From: a virus
Strand: one strand, 5' to 3'
Virus record (IMG/VR): IMGVR_UViG_3300042935_000895
Location: 1 to 22,184 of that record
DNA: 22,184 bases
Part shown: positions 6,101 through 22,184 of the stretch, one piece after another
Numbering within the stretch: the first letter of the stretch is position 1
How the letters are laid out: each line of letters starts with the position of its first letter
Translations under genes and position numbers: made by a program
Notes under the pieces: generated by a model
Seen by the model: the letters and a program-made list of their open reading frames with translations, nothing else
Told to the model about the DNA's origin: nothing
Databases searched by the model: none

Positions 6101-7735
6101 AAAGGCATCTCTTAAATTTAAAGAAACATCTTCCATACCACTAGTGGCAGCTGCGGCATTTTCTGAATAGAATGTTTTTAGTGGAATAAATTTATCATAT
6201 CCATTAACATCTAAAATAGCTTCATAAAAATCAAACTTAATTTGTGGTTTAAGATTATTTGCAATTATACTTCCAGTTTTAGTTGTACTATTAAAAAGAT
6301 TTAATTCTGTAAAAACCCCATCATGATTAGATAGATTAATCTCTCCAGTTGAAGCAACAAGACCACCAACTGGAAGACCAAAATCTGTTGCCATAATGTT
6401 CTTAGTAATTTGATAATCTAGGGTATAGTCTGTAATATCAACCTTTAATCTTGGTGAAAACTCAATTAATTCAAATGCTTTATTTGGAGCATACATTGTT
6501 TCTACAACAACTCTAATTCCTTTAATGAAGGCAAACTCTCTATAGATATCATTGCTACCAATGCTAAAATAGTCTGGATTTAATATTTTTTTAACCAGTC
6601 CAATTCTTTTTGTATCATCTTCTTCTAATAATGAGAATCCGTATTCTACATCATAGGTTTTCCACTCTTCATCTTCTTGACTCCAAACATAGAGGATTCC
6701 TGGCTGAGAATTTGAGCTTCCAATTATATAAGCATCTCCATCTTTAACTCCTGATACAGCAATGTAAATGCTTGTGTCTGGCAACTGATCTACATTATCA
6801 AGATATTGATATAGATGAAAATTTGTTTTAAACTGTTCTGGAATTTTAACTCCATAATATATTTCTACATGACCGTCCCATGGAACTATTCTTGAGCCGT
6901 CTCTTCTTGTAGATGTTTCGTTAAAGTTTATAGCATCTGTCCAGTTATTATTAATGCCAAGGTATTGAATTTTCCATCTTTTTGGAACTGATGATTTTGT
7001 AATATCTTGAAGTGGATCTGTAACTAAGTTGTTATTAGTTCTAATTGTTCCTGGAACTAAAAATTCTCCATTAATTCCAACCGCTTCTGGATCTGCTAGG
7101 TTGGTTTGCATCTTTACAACTATTCTATTTGTGGCAACTTGATCTTTATAAGTAACAAAAGGAGCACAGTCATTTATTTTATAAGAAGGGTCTCCAGTAG
7201 TAAAAAATGTAGCAGCCTGACTAGATATTCCAAACTCTACTCCATTTTCTTTTCTATAAGAATTCCAATATTTAAACTTATCAAATCTTGAGCAAAAGTA
7301 ATATCTTGGTCTTTTTCCAGACCTAATACTGTCTACAAACTTTGTATTATTTATATTTGATTCTCCAAAATAAAGAATCTTATTAATTCCAGACCTTGGT
7401 CTAAAAGGTTTGATACAATCTTTTAAAGAATAGTAAAGCTCTCTACTTGTTTCTCCTGAATAAAATGTCAAAGGCTCGTTTGGATCTTCTGTTTTATATT
7501 CAGAAAGGTAGTTAGAGTCTAATGCATTTGTATAAACATTTACATTATCTTGAGAATCATATTCTGGATATAGATTCCTGTAAACAACGCTTGCACTATC
7601 TGGTCTAAATCTATAATTTCCATAATTATCTAGGTTTGAAAAATCATTTTGATTCCATTCAGCAATAATTAAAGAATCTACATTAATACTATTTTTTGTC
7701 TGAAGATGATTAATTAAGTCATTATCTGAAAACAT
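3200..7735 (-). CDS. large tail hub / tail-associated (Tal-like) protein, 1511 aa
   Basis: At this position (tape measure, distal tail-like protein, then this) phages of Gram-positive hosts encode the tail hub that closes the tube and holds the fibres. Residues about 420-640 look like hub-core material (SPRLKVDITDYTLDYQIT, then a long helix-strand stretch ending FFDEYNNFVIMPKEYL, as in gp27/prophage-tail proteins). The C-terminus (1440-1511: FELDTFGTQHIQLGDLVKI, then F-V-V-I-S-A-T-Y and T-Q-L-R-V-V-E-V) is a typical last hub segment. Between them, about 1005-1240, sits a concanavalin/LamG-like beta-sandwich. The first 400 residues are beta-rich and unassigned. I see no peptidase or lysozyme motif, so no wall-degrading activity is claimed. 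Translation starts in a TAATG overlap, with GAGGAAG upstream. Hub identity is fairly sure; the fine domain limits are approximate. Confidence 0.75.
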   Translation of the reverse strand: MFSDNDLINHLQTKNSINVDSLIIAEWNQNDFSNLDNYGNYRFRPDSASVVYRNLYPEYDSQDNVNVYTNALDSNYLSEYKTEDPNEPLTFYSGETSRELYYSLKDCIKPFRPRSGINKILYFGESNINNTKFVDSIRSGKRPRYYFCSRFDKFKYWNSYRKENGVEFGISSQAATFFTTGDPSYKINDCAPFVTYKDQVATNRIVVKMQTNLADPEAVGINGEFLVPGTIRTNNNLVTDPLQDITKSSVPKRWKIQYLGINNNWTDAINFNETSTRRDGSRIVPWDGHVEIYYGVKIPEQFKTNFHLYQYLDNVDQLPDTSIYIAVSGVKDGDAYIIGSSNSQPGILYVWSQEDEEWKTYDVEYGFSLLEEDDTKRIGLVKKILNPDYFSIGSNDIYREFAFIKGIRVVVETMYAPNKAFELIEFSPRLKVDITDYTLDYQITKNIMATDFGLPVGGLVASTGEINLSNHDGVFTELNLFNSTTKTGSIIANNLKPQIKFDFYEAILDVNGYDKFIPLKTFYSENAAAATSGMEDVSLNLRDAFFILESNNATSIFLQNSTLTKAVALLLDNIGFSNYVFKNINTANDPVIPFFFVEPDASVSEILQRLAQATQTAMFFDEYNNFVIMPKEYLMPDISVRDDNSAISERLTTLYGQKTNSIVPNIEAISSFETNILNDGQINYTTRYIQREVSKLEQASLSLSERTYGYKSAILWELGDQQEARTINQPTGNVGYALGAVPLATSLGSAVPTVANHQIVNNTIDVGESAFWLPRFQGYLFANGEIIRYDAQQYQVDSPSASATNGLVWITNNTEYQKYFSQLVFNGKMVLTGLLRIYTEPYYENASGSNFDNLEENVRYKNGQVRSHGRGQFGTVVTSHFSGLSSYWESSNNRKSFRMDSQNIFSTVPTDLLSYGEISASVSASAYPLGNDTTSQSQSLITSKIANFMKQSTRSEGFSSYTQQDVAGIQSSALIFNGPYPVPALQNTGLSLATDRDLVSYVYKDLDTDYRHFGTRMRIIGKVKDDKTQSALNPVDLYKIDRGVGDVNLETLSGGAGGIGYMVDPDTNSGYYLEIASMSEDILQYYGSTASAPLNASVVSGSVVSGSISYNSVIENIIFYKVERTPYSTQESGKTNIAVPKKLWGTLARIVVDEGKFTGSDRLTSQEIPVYDLSLDAEIRRNSSGIYRIDFNVYLNNRLIGTVTDNNPLQMPSSGLKTCLFTRGSSKCMFENIYALKNIREEDVPLAQRVKNVVSADSLRKYSVPAIIQNTFLSSISTETRPTVDFYFEEFGTILRECAYFNIKYDQAYPALIAKVVPPFTVEKSYQISGFLPGSYGAEFLIFNTTDKAIDLSESSTNRIMIQGITFTQNISNVLTVDDYFKELSNFSDPVFIENTIVSPGRSEKIYDNIKNSRSIYGNKSFSIDSIYIQNEDSAKDIMKWVLDKTIKPRKVFELDTFGTQHIQLGDLVKINYDLPEGVKLVDENKKFVVISATYERSSSDIKTQLRVVEV
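4016..4723 (-). other. LamG/concanavalin A-like sandwich within the hub protein
   Basis: This covers codons about 1005-1240 of the hub gene. It opens with D-Y-R-H-F-G-T-R-M-R-I-I-G-K-V, continues with S-G-Y-Y-L-E-I, then Y-R-I-D-F-N-V-Y-L-N-N-R-L-I-G-T-V-T-D, and ends F-T-R-G-S-S-K-C-M-F-E-N-I-Y-A-L. In LamG-like domains the corresponding strands give the outer sheet, the ligand-facing edge and the closing 'fdnv' strand. These domains usually bind glycans or proteins. The reading is by pattern only. Confidence 0.5.
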
Positions 7736-17300: not shown

Positions 17301-17543
17301 GGTACTATCAAGATTTGCAGCAGCAGAATTCATTCTCATAAATTCTGAAGTAAATAGTCCACTTGCATTTATTGCTTTAGAAAGATCTTTTGTATAGTCA
17401 GAAGCAAACTTGCCTTGGGCAAGATTTCCCTTAGCCAAGGCAGCGTTAAATGAGTTTATTTGATTTTGAAGTGCCTTAAGCTCAGTAGCAGCAGATCCAG
17501 TGTTAATCTGGATGTCAATAATGCCTTTAGCTACTCCAGCCAT
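8319..17543 (-). CDS. tail tape measure protein, 3074 aa, with embedded extra domains
   Basis: The tape measure sets tail length and is ejected ahead of the DNA. Order of parts: helical N-terminus (1-180); PhageMin_Tail-type core (about 203-395, with QLSEEFTKYGIAVKDTIGLA and GGVSAEQGANALKSGLASLI); hydrophobic segments at about 183-199, 533-562, 1631-1661 and 1848-1894, likely to enter the host membrane; PGEF cassette A (695-731); unknown domain (828-1062); kinase-like domain (1108-1320); PGEF cassette B (1376-1412); helical region; Gly linker (2337-2347); 69-residue repeats (2386-2600); coiled coil; Pro linker (2844-2862); degenerate PGEF copy (2957-2995); and the usual C-terminal strand NTYNVNVNVAGTDASPDDIA. 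At the commonly used 0.15 nm per residue this is about 460 nm of tail, less if the inserted globular domains do not stretch. The ATG is in a TAATG overlap with the chaperone frame, with GAGGTGAT upstream. No peptidase or transglycosylase motif was seen. Confidence 0.93.
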   Translation of the reverse strand: MAGVAKGIIDIQINTGSAATELKALQNQINSFNAALAKGNLAQGKFASDYTKDLSKAINASGLFTSEFMRMNSAAANLDSTLKKGKGTLGQFFSSAFNKNSAGFAATMDLAARRASTLQTQFINTGASAKGMGEALAIRPLDAFSSKAAIAAERQALLNTMFRQGTTHMINFGKNVQWAGRQLMVGFTVPLTVLGTVAGRTFMDIEKQLVNLKKVYGDTFTTPEEINQNIAQVRQLSEEFTKYGIAVKDTIGLAAQAAASGARNGDLVDATRQATRLATLGQMDQNEALKTTIALQSAFRLSGEDLADTINFLNMVENQTVVSLQDLSAAIPRVAPVIKGLGGDVRDMSVFLAAMQEGGVSAEQGANALKSGLASLINPTKAATETLSGFGINLDKIISTNRGDLMGTVFAFGQALKGLDDFSKQQALEKVFGKYQYARLGALFENIVRDGSQASQVLSLMEYDVTALRATAEKELSAVENALGTQLIGAVERLKLSLEPIGKIFIEMAIPVVNFLTKIVEKFDGLSDGQKKFAAIAAVIVGVVVPAGTMFLGLLINLLGTLGKITHGFGIFGKALIKGGPVAAVKALTQSTKYLSIEELEAAGAARQLASSTEIANAAMLEQATSTGAARNAVAGLVAEYRALIAVQQQAAATRPGLGVAAAAGAAAGKTTPIRIRGLRRNSGGEIFMSGGTTVPGMGNTDTVPAMLTPGEFVINKEATKNNLGLLHSINDGKTPQGLNSGGMAGVQYLNIGNIVRAARMARAAKMGKGIPRRSGAFGSPEVEYSSQSTRRKIPVTSRAAEERLAQDMQEGQASRVPRPISTQRTHFDSNEMISSRAQYEAIKRLPGSKIGQGSQKDRLAEILLDHDYPVKALTDDWANFSTTINQAARRNTNTPRSIDDVMQELRSNPSAVSFTQGGRDAAFLRVYPGVSNSQFVDDLNRELLAIRTAKGNVNITDDMLNQARNTAYPNMRGAAQITGLRLPAKSDLVDIANKDLPPGNKISVTDRNVNDRLNEHFIKNNVPLRAGPGSKLRAIDSNGNTLQFKDRNGKVINVENKFGGSTEFNKGGAVGGMQYFGARMPNRVVKSSQIKKFTGQKIEDSAGHSSRFQKLAGVYDVNGRKMFVKPFSTLEEAQAELIGNAARRRIAGTATPGSRIVRMDGPEGEIFATTAPMIPGMKPGSTLPTKELLKQIPASSMLGDMDATAGNILSTGGGRLVTVDPGAAGVKLTRNSKGVFRRATGSEISFGSEATNTGAYTAKAITQVLEKTGASKDFVKMLGDSIAREGLTKAQFTKMYDDAVESSISRVSAFKLPSRVGDRTKLDEAAKAAGYRNADEAYSAIMLRDLTSIRGLGGDIYSSASKFQGMLKANSGTLVPGMGNTDTVPAMLTPGEFVVNKEATGKNLPLLQSINDGNVQGFNKGGMPGVQYFGTRMPNRKVKDLPRSAQRGNQGSGQYPADRGQGRGQDFAGMARERQRLEYEMAQTSKRLQDSLNKVSMSNTAYANVGAKYTMLRENVEKQVMRQQLIHTDRMVGINANLAKIGPTMAAGTNLLKTTMANGAKSMVTATSNYGKSLLVAAKALPSTISGAMAGRGAGISQAMMMGSMIPMMASSTVEDPKKAQALMGAGAAMSIIPMLASMGPVIGGVVAALGLLGGAFYMIRKHVDGLSKSSAIAGSNMGGAANRMETMAQATGYGFASTRSGNADFRFTEKQAQNASEIMPYFDTDEGKKLIEEMKKLSSQQRYEKVASMLTFAIADGMSPDKAEAFGSSIAFALDDALLKSKVIALIKSGTLESGSQAMINEINKRQQSLGNDIQDVKSNAIPEASSPIPGVSGGTAIAVNSAGPALMVGGAAGLLAMAGATAALGASAGTVVPVIGTAVGLVAGLAVGLFKYNKAMDELDKQIEVVGKTFGSSIQTIKELNNAESLLREERKNGTISLEDFEAREKQIEEMRNTAYENISAAVVNLPDAGAASQAVSDQLQLGGFEKDNADLIARQTDRDKVSAEMFQKSFDDLDANQKEIIGKVVASTLDGITPENYATKLDDIKNVWALYKEALLEKTKDGVAVNAQEMQSLFEESQLKNFVSSLNIPGGGGSPLNPDAASQQMQAAIESSGTTLSYDQIVNALTELGDPRLALQVGTNADSIKDLESVLNNLPDGWDISMYTKYLNGDTEFTNPEDYTKSIQDAIDKIAEIAPEGFTPVEIFKLFEGTGKDPVKEMQDAVAKADDIINKIGGDDTKTKQVIFETTGMDMTQAEVDAYNALGPGESKSFVTSFIIASAKLELGEMPKQEDYYRPGSFNIAMKEYTAQVEKAKELAKTIQGINQSQTPSNQDGGGGGGGSSSGKAKTKKELQKEAKDWLKNSKKELTALNKYTGAIDGVINANNAEAISMIPQDIYMNLSNANRAIAIARMNKQIEAQERLNAILAVASIKENTKDLGEQLAATNTLVSQGIDPEIIAMVDMKTYLSLTAAERKEYIKSLNAQTEAEKKLNAVQGLLDVKKKVSDLKDQVSVTNTLVSSGISGEIAALVDVTIYQNLSTAAKAEYIAELKKQLDIQRQLDFLTKSSEERSLDALDLISSGIDMENIALENQLHVMERQNELWQRDINDRNRGLELIARQEEAVNKVYDDRIDALDKVAKGNDRIAQQERSRVDLASALASGDISAAANAASTMQQQETEYRIEDARAELEAKRQSDLKAITTSVNGVLMTRQQIEDSIRVISDKIYANEQLMIGVQNTLYDNAERQRVVDENRMKLQQRILLIQQKTNIEAMRGLNLTGQALRDYQDQIDAYNAAVVASEAAGVTTPGQAANTTLGAGGGGGAADNITAPVTPEVPPVVTPPTPPTPPTPPTPPKPPDLPEGHIAGDKLFNTMIDLYNKLSSGSKTNFHEIVDVGPGAKFATWKANRASKLISDGNLTLMNTKVLNNGKVGKDAGEDVPTYDSKVSFKKHTGGEIPGIGGMDSMKIAATPGEFMVRKAMVRKYGLPMLEAINMGAFKIPEMSEPTFGIGGSDRYRIPESGKAQGPETMYNNTYNVNVNVAGTDASPDDIANVVMAKLSQQNRGNLRSNRY
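8962..9015 (-). repeat. 9-bp tandem repeat encoding a Thr-Pro-Pro linker
   Basis: On the plus strand the unit ggtggagta is perfect four times (8971-9006), with a variant on each side (ggtggctta at 8962, ggtggagtc at 9007). It encodes P-T-P repeats at tape measure residues about 2843-2860. The identical copies point to recent slippage, so unit number may vary between close relatives. It makes a rigid spacer between the coiled coil and the C-terminal part. Confidence 0.9.
9744..10388 (-). repeat. tandem 69-residue helical repeats in the tape measure
   Basis: This covers codons about 2386-2600. The clearest unit begins near 2440 (D-L-G-E-Q-L-A-A-T-N-T-L-V-S-Q-G-I-D, then I-A-M-V-D-M-K-T-Y-L-S-L-T-A-A-E-R-K-E-Y-I). 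It recurs 69 residues later (D-L-K-D-Q-V-S-V-T-N-T-L-V-S-S-G-I-S, then I-A-A-L-V-D-V-T-I-Y-Q-N-L-S-T-A-A-K-A-E-Y-I). A partial copy precedes them (A-I-S-M-I-P-Q-D-I-Y-M-N-L-S) and a decayed one follows at about 2575 (L-I-S-S-G-I-D). The G-I-[DS] turn and the L-S/T-x-A cap recur in each. Confidence 0.75.
13308..13418 (-). repeat. PGEF cassette copy B in the tape measure
   Basis: This covers codons 1376-1412 and repeats VPGMGNTDTVPAMLTPGEF, then V-V-N-K-E-A-T, N-L-P-L-L and S-I-N-D-G. It is followed at 13221-13292 by NKGGMPGVQYFGTRMPNRKV, which nearly matches NKGGAVGGMQYFGARMPNR at 14277-14348. Together with copy A these repeats bracket the two inserted domains. Confidence 0.85.
13584..14222 (-). 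other. kinase-like domain embedded in the tape measure
   Basis: This covers codons about 1108-1320. Visible in order: V-Y-D-V-N-G-R-K-M-F-V-K-P-F with Lys1126 in the position of the ATP-binding lysine; helix LEEAQAELIGNAARR with Glu1137 as its usual partner; a hinge-like strand GEIFATTAPMIPG at about 1165; G-D-M-D-A-T-A-G-N-I-L with Asp1203 and Asn1208 five residues apart, as in HipA and PI3-kinase-like catalytic loops; L-V-T-V-D-P-G with Asp1221 as metal ligand, 13 residues after the Asn. A helical C-lobe follows. All key residues are present, so it could be active. Kinship to atypical kinases is inferred from spacing, not from a search. Confidence 0.6.
14358..15062 (-). other. unrecognised inserted domain in the tape measure
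   Basis: This covers codons about 828-1062, between PGEF copy A and the next NKGG-QYFG-MPNR boundary. It is rich in charged and polar residues and lacks the Ala-rich helical texture of a tape measure. Notable stretches are SRAQYEAIKRLPGSKIGQGS near 836-855, LAEILLDHDYPVKALTDDW near 860-878, and a beta-like end (LQFKDRNGKVINVENKFGG). I know no family with these motifs. It looks like a compact globular domain. Confidence 0.5.
15351..15461 (-). repeat. PGEF cassette copy A in the tape measure
   Basis: This covers codons 695-731: VPGMGNTDTVPAMLTPGEF followed by V-I-N-K-E-A-T, N-L-G-L-L and S-I-N-D-G. Copy B (13308-13418) repeats it almost exactly at protein level while the DNA differs at many third positions, so it is an old duplication under protein-level constraint. 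This sequence type is normally found once near the end of actinophage tape measures. Here it precedes a foreign-looking domain. Confidence 0.85.
16359..16937 (-). other. PhageMin_Tail-type core domain of the tape measure
   Basis: This covers codons about 203-395. Diagnostic stretches are the N-terminal MDIEKQLVNLKKVYGD, the helix QLSEEFTKYGIAVKDTIGLA, then ATRLATLG, and GGVSAEQGANALKSGLASLI followed by P-T. This is the conserved part of phage tail tape measure proteins from Gram-positive and actinobacterial phages, and it fixes the identity of the whole gene. Confidence 0.85.
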
Positions 17544-18210
17544 TAATTAATCACCTCATATTCCAAGCCTTGTCCAATGCCAAAACCAGCTCTTGTAGCT
17601 GCAGCACCTTGCAATGCAAGGATGTCATTAGGATTTGATGTAACGCCTTTGCTATAAACTCTGGCTTTCATTTCTTCCCATTTATTTCCAGACGAAGAGG
17701 ATTCATCTATATTAACGCCTTGAAGTGCTGCTAAAAATTTTCTATCTTCATAGTCTTGATTATTTTTAGCCTCTAGTATTGCTACTAATTCAGGCATTGA
17801 TATAGATTCCTCCATTTCAGAATAATTCTTCCAGAATCCCAAAAGAAATATTCTTGATTCTAACTCAGCAAGATCTAGTTCGTCCCAACTAGAGCCGCTG
17901 CCAGTGCGTTTGGGTCATTTAATTTGATCCCTGCTGCCACTTCAATTACCTTGTACACAGTTGGGAGATCCATGATTTCCTCTAACTGCTCCTTAGTTGC
18001 TAATTCTGCATTGTATTGCTTCATTGCAATTACAGCACAATTTAACAAAAGATCCATTGATTTGATATTATCTTCTGCAATTTTTGGATCACTAATCTTT
18101 TGAAACTCTTTCATAAAATCTCTCAATAAAGAAATCTTAAGTGGTTTCATAGAAATATTAGAGCCATCTAACAGTTCTACTTCTACAACTTCATATACGC
18201 TAGTTGCCAT
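17543..18210 (-). CDS. tail assembly chaperone G-T fusion (programmed -1 frameshift), 222 aa
   Basis: This is the long form of the tail chaperone. Ribosomes read 101 codons from 18210 to AAC (17908-17910), slip back one base on CCCAAAC, and resume at 17908 with R-T-G-S-G-S-S-W-D-E-L-D-L-A-E-L-E-S-R-I. They then read a helical segment through F-L-L-G-F-W-K and S-I-S-M-P-E-L to the TAA at 17543, adding 121 residues. The -1 frame is closed by a TGA just upstream of the slip site, so the second part has no start of its own. The TTG at 17842 lies mid-helix (L-L-G-F-W) and has no ribosome site. In lambda-like phages G and G-T coat the tape measure and recruit tube subunits. Here the fusion overlaps the tape measure start by 1 nt, as expected. 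Confidence 0.85.
17875..18210 (-). CDS. tail assembly chaperone G (short form), 111 aa
   Basis: This is the zero-frame product, made by ribosomes that do not slip. The fold is mostly helical after an N-terminal beta hairpin: VYEVVEVELLDGSNISMKPL, then LLRDFMKEFQKI and a Leu/Ala-rich segment (MDLLLNCAVIAMKQYNAELA), ending in VAAGIKLNDPNAL. This matches the usual size and texture of siphovirus G-type chaperones and their position between tube and tape measure genes. The ATG at 18210 has a strong AGGAGG 5 nt upstream (18216-18221) in a 105-nt gap that also holds a terminator and a promoter. The short form is normally in large excess over G-T. Confidence 0.85.
   Translation of the reverse strand: MATSVYEVVEVELLDGSNISMKPLKISLLRDFMKEFQKISDPKIAEDNIKSMDLLLNCAVIAMKQYNAELATKEQLEEIMDLPTVYKVIEVAAGIKLNDPNALAAALVGTN
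17908..17914 (-). promoter_or_regulatory. -1 ribosomal frameshift slippery heptamer CCCAAAC
   Basis: In the zero frame this is C-CCA-AAC, a canonical X-XXY-YYZ heptamer. After slipping, both tRNAs can re-pair on CCC and AAA. It lies between the -1 frame TGA (upstream) and the zero-frame TAG (17875-17877), the only interval where a slip gives a continuous fusion. Fourteen nt downstream a perfect 7-bp hairpin TCTAGTT-GGGACG-AACTAGA (17874-17893) contains the zero-frame stop. The spacing is longer than the usual 5-9 nt, so its stimulatory role is uncertain. Confidence 0.85.
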
Positions 18211-18235
18211 TTATTCCTCCTATAGAATATATTCA

Positions 18236-18263
18236 ATTATATCATAGAAGCCTTATAAAACAA
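18236..18263 (-). promoter_or_regulatory. candidate SigA-type promoter with extended -10
   Basis: On the minus strand, TTGTTT (18258-18263) lies 16 nt before TATAAT (18236-18241), and TGA precedes the hexamer, giving TGATATAAT. The predicted start near 18229 leaves a leader of about 19 nt containing the AGGAGG of the chaperone gene. The -35 lies in the T-rich tail of the preceding terminator, so one site ends tube transcription and a new transcript can begin at once. Confidence 0.6.
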
Positions 18264-18267
18264 ACAA

Positions 18268-18293
18268 TGCCCACCCTTTTTAGGGGGTGGGCA
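18268..18293 (-). terminator. intrinsic terminator after the major tail protein gene
   Basis: A perfect 9-bp GC-rich stem, TGCCCACCC/GGGTGGGCA with an 8-nt loop (18277-18284), is followed on the minus strand by TTGTTTGTTTT. It starts about 20 nt past the stop of the tube gene. This is the strongest terminator in the window. On the plus strand the flank lacks a T tract, so it acts for the minus strand only. Confidence 0.88.
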
Positions 18294-18987: not shown

Positions 18988-19071
18988 ATTTTTTCACCTC
19001 TTTTTTAGTCTTAAAATTTATGGGGAGATTGGCGTTTCCTAAGTTAAGTATACCTCTAGTTTTTTATAGTT
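18988..19071 (-). promoter_or_regulatory. 84-nt leader of the tube gene with a weak candidate promoter
   Basis: This gap holds a possible -10 TATACT (19047-19052) inside AGGTATACTTAAC, with no convincing -35 17 nt upstream, and a strong ribosome site GAGGTGA (18994-19000). No hairpin of terminator type is visible. A separate promoter would fit the terminator on the other side of the gene, but the sequence support is weak. Confidence 0.35.
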
Positions 19072-21896: not shown

Positions 21897-21905
21897 ATTA
21901 TATCA
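21897..21905 (-). promoter_or_regulatory. candidate extended -10 promoter after the capsid gene
   Basis: TATAAT (21897-21902) is preceded by TGA (21903-21905) on the minus strand, identical to the element before the tail chaperone gene. The -35 region is poor and lies in the preceding terminator hairpin, so activity would depend on the extended -10. The predicted start near 21890 leaves about 8 nt before the ATG of the small gene. Confidence 0.5.
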
Positions 21906-21917
21906 TTCATAAATAGA

Positions 21918-21949
21918 TGAAGGGGAGACAAATTAATGCCTCCCCTCCA
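21918..21949 (-). terminator. probable terminator hairpin after the capsid gene
   Basis: On the minus strand, TGGAGGGGAG (21940-21949) pairs with CTCCCCTTCA (21918-21927) over 10 bp including one G-T pair, with a 12-nt loop. It begins about 15 nt past the capsid stop. The following TCTATTTATG is only moderately T-rich, so termination may be partial, which would let some transcription continue into the connector genes. Confidence 0.55.
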
Positions 21950-21963
21950 AAAATAGAGTAAAA

Positions 21964-22184
21964 TTACTCTGACATGAATGCTACTGCATCAGTTTCTTCA
22001 ACTGCTACACCAAAGCGTAGGAATACGGTATATTCTACTGTATCCTTCTTTGGCTTGAACTCACGATGTACTGTTACGTCTCTCTGGAAGCCCCAGATGC
22101 GGTTTTCTGGGAATGTAAGTGATACATAACCAGCTGGCATCAAAGGAACTTCAACCAATGGAAGACCTAGAACACGGTATGCGA
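21964..22184 (-). CDS. major capsid protein, C-terminal fragment (5' end outside window)
   Basis: The last 72 residues are visible, and the frame is open to the window edge. The segment runs L-G-L-P-L-V-E-V-P-L-M-P-A-G-Y, then PENRIWGFQRDVTVHREFKP, and ends D-T-V-E-Y-T-V-F-L-R-F-G-V-A-V with the closing F-M-S-E. This is the end of an HK97-fold capsid protein: a P-domain strand (site label plus a 'N-x-I-W-G' turn), the long back strand with alternating charges, and the final A-domain strand. A TTG at 22156-22158 could be mistaken for a start, but the frame and fold continue upstream of it. It uses CGT/CGC Arg codons and many C-ending codons like the tube gene. It is followed by a terminator-like hairpin and a promoter-like site. 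Confidence 0.85.
   Translation of the reverse strand, partial: AYRVLGLPLVEVPLMPAGYVSLTFPENRIWGFQRDVTVHREFKPKKDTVEYTVFLRFGVAVEETDAVAFMSE

Follow-up and report, generated by a model that had tools for sequence, protein, structure and literature searches.

Are the tail tube gene and the chaperone and tape measure genes behind it carried on one message or on two? The question is raised by the 105-nt interval between tube and chaperone in the window (the whole stretch of DNA analysed, a 22,184-base virus record), where all of the virion genes, namely the capsid end, the head-tail genes, the tube, the chaperone and the tape measure, lie on the minus strand (Table 1). A sequence-only reading had placed a terminator for the tube transcript at this junction and, directly behind it, a promoter whose -35 element was the T-rich tail of the terminator. 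Our comparison of relatives makes it very probable that the junction is a conserved transcription-unit boundary, with a predicted terminator for the tube mRNA followed by a predicted extended -10 promoter for the chaperone/tape-measure message, and that the same boundary is repeated after the capsid gene. An intrinsic terminator would end the tube mRNA, an extended -10 promoter of the host sigma-A type and lacking a -35 would begin the chaperone/tape-measure message, and the major capsid gene would have the same relay, as we call this arrangement, downstream. With its own upstream promoter and its 3' hairpin, the tube message would be a separate unit whose level can differ from that of the chaperone and tape measure, and the most-needed virion proteins are probably made from separate messages. 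From the sequence patterns we infer transcription end and restart at the junction, host sigma-A as the factor and dosage as the purpose.

Table 1. Features of the window that bear on the two boundaries.
Feature	Position	Strand	Basis
3' end of major capsid gene	21964..22182	-	phrog_1623 virion structural protein, E 3.3e-18; annotated major capsid protein there in several isolated relatives
Second hairpin, 13 bp, downstream of capsid gene	21918..21949	-	conserved
Second TGATATAAT, upstream of 63-aa gene 21882-21691	21897..21905	-	TGnTATAAT in 40/41 loci covering the junction
Predicted tube promoter -10, TATACT	19047..19052	-	-10 lies 6-8 nt before the box in 38/38 loci scored
AGGAAAC box at predicted 5' end of tube mRNA	19034..19040	-	43/43 leaders with enough upstream sequence
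Tube Shine-Dalgarno, GAGGTGA	18994..19000	-	sequence
Major tail (tube) protein gene, 223 aa	18316..18987	-	phrog_2175, E 1.8e-31
Predicted intrinsic terminator hairpin TGCCCACCC-CCTAAAAA-GGGTGGGCA downstream of tube gene	18268..18293	-	hairpin at 44/44 distinct loci
U-rich tail TTGTTTGTTTT after tube hairpin	18257..18267	-	read from sequence
Predicted extended -10 promoter TGATATAAT	18236..18244	-	conserved; predicted transcription start ~18229
Chaperone Shine-Dalgarno, AGGAGG	18216..18221	-	sequence
Tail assembly chaperone G, 111 aa	17875..18210	-	phrog_10504 (unknown function), E 1.2e-23; position matches annotated Streptomyces phage tail assembly chaperones
-1 slippery heptamer C CCA AAC	17908..17914	-	in frame near G end; open -1 frame; 222-aa G-T product predicted
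T part of predicted 222-aa G-T frameshift product	17543..17907	-	43-52% identity to 13 in-frame G-T fusions of relatives
Tape measure protein gene, 3074 aa	8319..17543	-	phrog_10030, E 7.4e-99

The letters and coordinates of a 9-bp terminator hairpin followed by TTGTTT-16-TATAAT, as first reported, are correct. The stem contains 7 G-C pairs and closes a loop of 8, as expected of the stem and short loop of an intrinsic terminator. Its tail, TTGTTTGTTT, is interrupted by a G and holds 6 T in its best 8-base window, which qualifies as a U-tract. The intergenic segment folds at -31.6 kcal/mol (z = -3.87), a value reached by 0 of 200 shuffles. Downstream, TTGTTT (18263-18258) is separated by 16 nt from TATAAT (18241-18236), and TGn directly precedes the TATAAT-like hexamer, the arrangement of a sigma-70/sigma-A extended -10; this TGATATAAT lies 25 nt upstream of the chaperone start. 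No Rfam family matched between 16000 and 22184.

By count, the window alone is not convincing, and the junction could be chance: TGNTATAAT occurs 3 times against 1.81 expected, a number that 27 of 100 shuffles reach, and there are 14 terminator-like sites where 9.7 are expected (sd 2.9). All three copies of TGNTATAAT are on the coding strand, each just upstream of a gene (869-861, 18244-18236 and 21905-21897). The third TGATATAAT, on the minus strand at 869-861, is accompanied by AGGAG and precedes gene 843-409; this site gave no hairpin relay in a strict scan for the hairpin and extended -10 pair. Given that single-window counts are insufficient, the significance of the junction comes from relatives, which conserve both hairpin and extended -10.

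A scan with the tube protein returned at least 599 relatives in IMG/VR, of which the best 80 loci were used. Together with the window these gave 81 sequences; five (L005, L032, L039, L040 and L068) had no usable junction, and the remaining 76 comprised 44 distinct junctions at less than 93% similarity. The pattern sought was a hairpin of at least 6 bp with 4 G-C pairs and 4 T in 8 bases, followed by TGnTAnnHT; loops of up to 13 and stems from 5 bp were searched, the T window could begin 3 nt inside the stem, and shuffled sequences were held to the identical rule. In L046, L047, L054 and L061 the downstream start was taken as the first ATG of a frame of at least 60 aa. All 44 distinct tube junctions carry the hairpin and then the extended -10, compared with a mean of 0.11 and a maximum of 1 in 100 dinucleotide-shuffled sets. 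The exact TGnTATAAT is present at 28 of the 44 (shuffled mean 0.25). Since the loci are related, these counts are not independent events. By the script's stem boundaries, with arms of unequal length treated as distinct, the 44 hairpins show 40 versions of the 5' arm and 37 of the 3' arm; the pairing of the predicted stem is kept while its letters change. Invariance of the TG, the T-A and the final T of the -10 is built into the search pattern; position 4 of the hexamer, which the pattern leaves free, is A in 44 of 44, with a script that preferred TATAAT-like matches.

Position-specificity was assessed by a strict scan for hairpin, extended -10 and reading frame over both strands of 565,040 bases. 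All of its matches were on the gene strand: 43 marked the tube junction and 29 the capsid junction, and a single further match lay in L016, 5.5 kb downstream of the tube. The -10 motif is less specific than the hairpin and -10 pair, and also turns up away from the two junctions: across the 44 loci, TGnTATAAT alone occurs 28 times at the tube, 41 times in the capsid region, 40 times elsewhere on the gene strand and 4 times on the other strand, while a reversed-letter control gave 25 elsewhere on the gene strand and 20 on the other. One scan for a bacterial genome carrying the tube gene found none. In L046 and L047, a gene resembling an HNH endonuclease (a label drawn from residues read by eye) is inserted after the relay promoter, 6 nt after the -10. 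In L047 it sits visibly between promoter and chaperone, and L046 is the one junction among the 44 in which it separates the relay from the chaperone.

These alignments uphold the boundary between a tube unit and a chaperone/tape-measure unit, through a hairpin kept as its letters vary and a conserved extended -10. They do not uphold the T-rich tail as a -35. With the 44 loci aligned on the -10, no TTGACA-like signal stands out at 16-18 nt beyond other spacings: the best TTGACA match there is 2 or fewer in 27 of the 44, and other spacings are equally good. In the window, TTGTTT shares just 3 of 6 positions with TTGACA, which is why a generic promoter scanner requiring at least 4 of 6 per hexamer missed it. 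Because the distance from hairpin to TG spans -1 to 31 nt, the -35 position falls inside the hairpin itself in many relatives. A -35 within the U-tail was rejected on these grounds, and the predicted relay promoter is an extended -10 promoter without a -35.

The closeness of the two elements raises the possibility that the polymerase remains bound to the DNA after releasing the tube or capsid RNA and is passed to the nearby promoter, so that downstream expression would be coupled to tube transcription. A terminating enzyme would cover the promoter in the 26 of 44 loci in which TG starts 3-8 nt after the stem, and a missing -35 would suit a polymerase already on the DNA. Portions available from two reports bear on this: Harden et al. 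(PMC6978322) indicate that a sense promoter near a terminator may couple genes, and Kang et al. (PMC6978380) measured, in vitro, reinitiation downstream at 37% of termination events. In both, however, the evidence concerns the E. coli enzyme, and restart in the available part of Harden et al. is mostly in the reverse direction. The gap is also not strictly kept: it ranges from -1 to 31 nt overall, and in the window's own ten-row clade it is 20-24 nt in nine rows and 15 nt in L017. Compact phage genomes crowd parts together anyway. We consider such a transfer improbable as the explanation of the boundary.

The second copy of the relay, after the capsid gene (21949-21897), is absent from the sequence-only reading. 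The capsid end was located by its protein, and 41 loci cover this junction; the only one lacking TGnTATAAT is L038, which reads AGTATAAT. When the U-tail rule is applied, 35 of the 41 pass: L044, L046, L059, L070 and L078 have clear hairpins that are U-poor, and the sixth locus has no TG. The strict scan yielded only 29 capsid-junction matches because its rule is stricter than this protein-anchored count.

Such U-poor hairpins suit another explanation, in which the hairpin acts chiefly on RNA 3' ends, as a place where they are protected or cut, and most chaperone mRNA arises by read-through. Several capsid-junction hairpins have no clear U-tract, and the window's own tail is broken by a G. Termination may indeed be leaky, given this interrupted tail and the short one (TTTTG) of some relatives. 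Yet a stability element leaves the conserved extended -10 unexplained, and equally the leaderless group described below, whose mRNA should begin at the ATG; we rate this account lower still than a transfer of polymerase. Chance or AT-rich composition, for which one could cite the unremarkable number of TGNTATAAT copies in the window, is refuted by conservation: the pair is present at all 44 junctions, where shuffles average 0.11, and is position-specific over 565 kb. This account can be set aside almost entirely.

We return to the preferred reading, a predicted terminator followed by a promoter, and to the tube gene's own promoter. Its -10 was scored in 38 loci, L056 having too little upstream sequence and L012, L022, L026, L033 and L034, whose box is GAGGAAAT, being missed by the pattern. 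Under a wider pattern, the box (T/G)AGGAAA(C/T) follows the tube -10 by 6-8 nt in 43 of 43 leaders, with L038 reading GAGGATAC. Among isolated phages read by eye, all 12 from Streptomyces have GAGGAAG at the position of this box, and none of the 3 from Rhodococcus does. A stem masking the tube Shine-Dalgarno was suspected, but RNAalifold found no consensus structure common to the 43 leaders. An exact TGnTATAAT marks 28 of the 44 promoters before the chaperone and 40 of the 41 behind the capsid gene, but only 5 of the 38 before the tube. The predicted chaperone -10 is therefore nearer consensus than the tube's own, and motif quality, if it points anywhere, points against a weak downstream promoter. 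A simple reading of strong tube and weak chaperone promoters does not fit these predicted elements, and the low-copy downstream message proposed in the sequence-only reading gains no support from them.

The genes behind the tube-junction relay take two forms. In architecture A, which includes the window, G is 110-114 aa long and has a Shine-Dalgarno, and the -10 is 24-41 nt from the start; an in-frame CCCAAAY or GGGAAAC -1 slippery site is present in 27 of 27 complete loci. The window has the features of a lambda-type G/GT pair: its slippery heptamer is correctly phased near the end of G, and the -1 frame is open. In architecture B (L052, L054, L057, L058, L061, L063, L064, L065, L071, L073, L076, L077 and L080 in the first set), there is no Shine-Dalgarno and the -10 lies 6 nt before the ATG (9 in L065). 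G and T are joined in one uninterrupted frame of 226-241 aa, whose product shares 43-52% identity with the frameshift product predicted for the window. A second gene of 102-111 aa, a relative of G, ends just upstream of the tape measure in 13 of 13 complete loci, and an exact TGnTATAAT precedes it in 12 of the 13 (all except L057). The complete loci number 27 A and 13 B, with L046, L059, L066 and L069 left out as off the contig or unreadable through. Shine-Dalgarno presence and -10 distance sort without exception (28/0/0/16, Fisher 2.4e-12), in rows that are related and architectures that sort by clade. The 16 rows without a Shine-Dalgarno include L046, whose 6-nt start belongs to the inserted HNH-like gene, leaving 15 chaperones.

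A second scan used the fusion as query and took the best 80 of 376 relatives (L099-L178), from which L130 and near-copies were removed to leave 38 distinct B loci. These overlap the first set and, having been found with a fusion query, give no estimate of how frequent B is. All 38 have a fusion of 225-236 aa without a Shine-Dalgarno, together with the second G gene. A -10 of nGnTATAMT or TACAAT type lies 6 nt from the fusion ATG in 35 of the 38 (the remainder at 8, 8 and 9 nt), L161 having TGTTATAAT at that distance; if TG is strictly required, 34 remain at 6 nt, as L174 has CG. The second G gene has an extended -10 in 38 of 38 and a Shine-Dalgarno in 37 of 38. The automated hairpin search missed 7 of the 38, in which interrupted stems are visible by eye; the -10 and Shine-Dalgarno counts do not depend on the hairpin. 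A -10 about 6-7 nt before an RTG with no Shine-Dalgarno, the mark of a leaderless mRNA, is thus found in the B group and not in the window. A leaderless mRNA requires its -10 at just this distance of 6 nt from the ATG, and the spacing is the best indirect sign that the relay -10 is probably used. Leaderless translation is common in mycobacteria, according to the part of PMC4633059 available.

We lean towards the view that in B the relay promoter has taken over from programmed ribosomal frameshifting. With a leaderless G-T fusion behind the relay and a Shine-Dalgarno-led G behind a second promoter, the G to G-T ratio, determined at the ribosome in lambda-like phages, would instead depend on a pair of promoters and on two ways of starting translation. 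In a quick tube tree, a branch with SH-aLRT 91 (not starred) separates A from the rest, and B is not resolved as a single clade; the change between A and B may have been one event, in either direction. As far as the accessible text of PMC5009743 goes, G/GT -1 frameshifting is widely conserved, with a 30:1 ratio. The window is alike in its C CCA AAC and overlapping T frame, whereas its B relatives have no shift and instead two genes and two promoters. T4-like phages have a short chaperone gene and a longer fused gene instead of frameshifting (PMC10885494, in its available portion, citing Vladimirov et al. 2022). B resembles them in having short and fused genes but differs in that its near relatives carry the slippery site, and in that its fused gene looks leaderless while its short G gene has a Shine-Dalgarno. 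The leaderless fusion with a separate G offers a natural comparison for asking why most long-tailed phages keep the frameshift.

In filamentous phages the gene VIII terminator and gene III promoter, and in T7 the terminator after gene 10, lie directly after the highest-copy coat gene, so that the virion genes behind it are expressed at a different level. Those phages are unrelated to the ones studied here, and T7 uses its own polymerase. Closer parallels come from two reports. In Cluster O mycobacteriophages such as Corndog, an intrinsic terminator is predicted immediately behind the gene for the major tail subunit, and leaderless SigA promoters are predicted elsewhere in the same genomes (PMC4351075). 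The terminator of these actinophages is alike, but the sections available describe no promoter directly after it and no post-capsid copy. Listeria phage CKA15 places late genes behind SigA-type extended -10 promoters without a consensus -35, identified by ONT-cappable-seq starts and a motif search (PMC12282133). The promoter type is alike; the host, however, is Listeria, and the accessible sections describe no pairing with post-tube or post-capsid terminators. Our literature search, with subscription papers mostly outside it and therefore weak evidence of novelty, found no description of the relay or of the leaderless fusion. The relay offers a predictable, conserved boundary marking the two highest-copy virion genes in a large related set that includes culturable Streptomyces and Rhodococcus phages, and both late-gene dosage control and the passing of polymerase from terminator to promoter are directly testable through it.

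Among phage records, the tube has 132 relatives (127 Streptomyces, 5 Rhodococcus) at less than 60% identity, many of them annotated as major tail protein among the 40 matches listed. Fifteen isolated phages, 12 of Streptomyces and 3 of Rhodococcus, were read by eye; none of them belongs to the B group. A hairpin follows the tube gene in 15 of 15 and TGnTAnnnT follows the hairpin in 14, Annadreamy having AGGTAAACT. After the capsid gene, hairpin and TGnTAnnnT are present in 13 of 13 isolated phages read, Circinus and BoomerJR standing outside this count. Leaderless-looking starts follow the capsid in Coruscant (L093, ATG 2754) and the three Rhodococcus phages (6-7 nt), and the Dorin chaperone also looks leaderless, with TGTTAGTAT 7 nt from ATG 6734. 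The annotated starts of Dorin (Rhodococcus, L095 6707) and Coruscant (Streptomyces, L093 2691) lie in or upstream of the terminator hairpin. The leaderless starts of these genes are likely the in-frame ATGs at 6734 and 2754, and gene-start corrections are suggested for the two public records. In BoomerJR (L085 3657-3671), an inverted repeat, GGATTG-TGA-CAATCC, lies between hairpin and -10 and is a possible operator.
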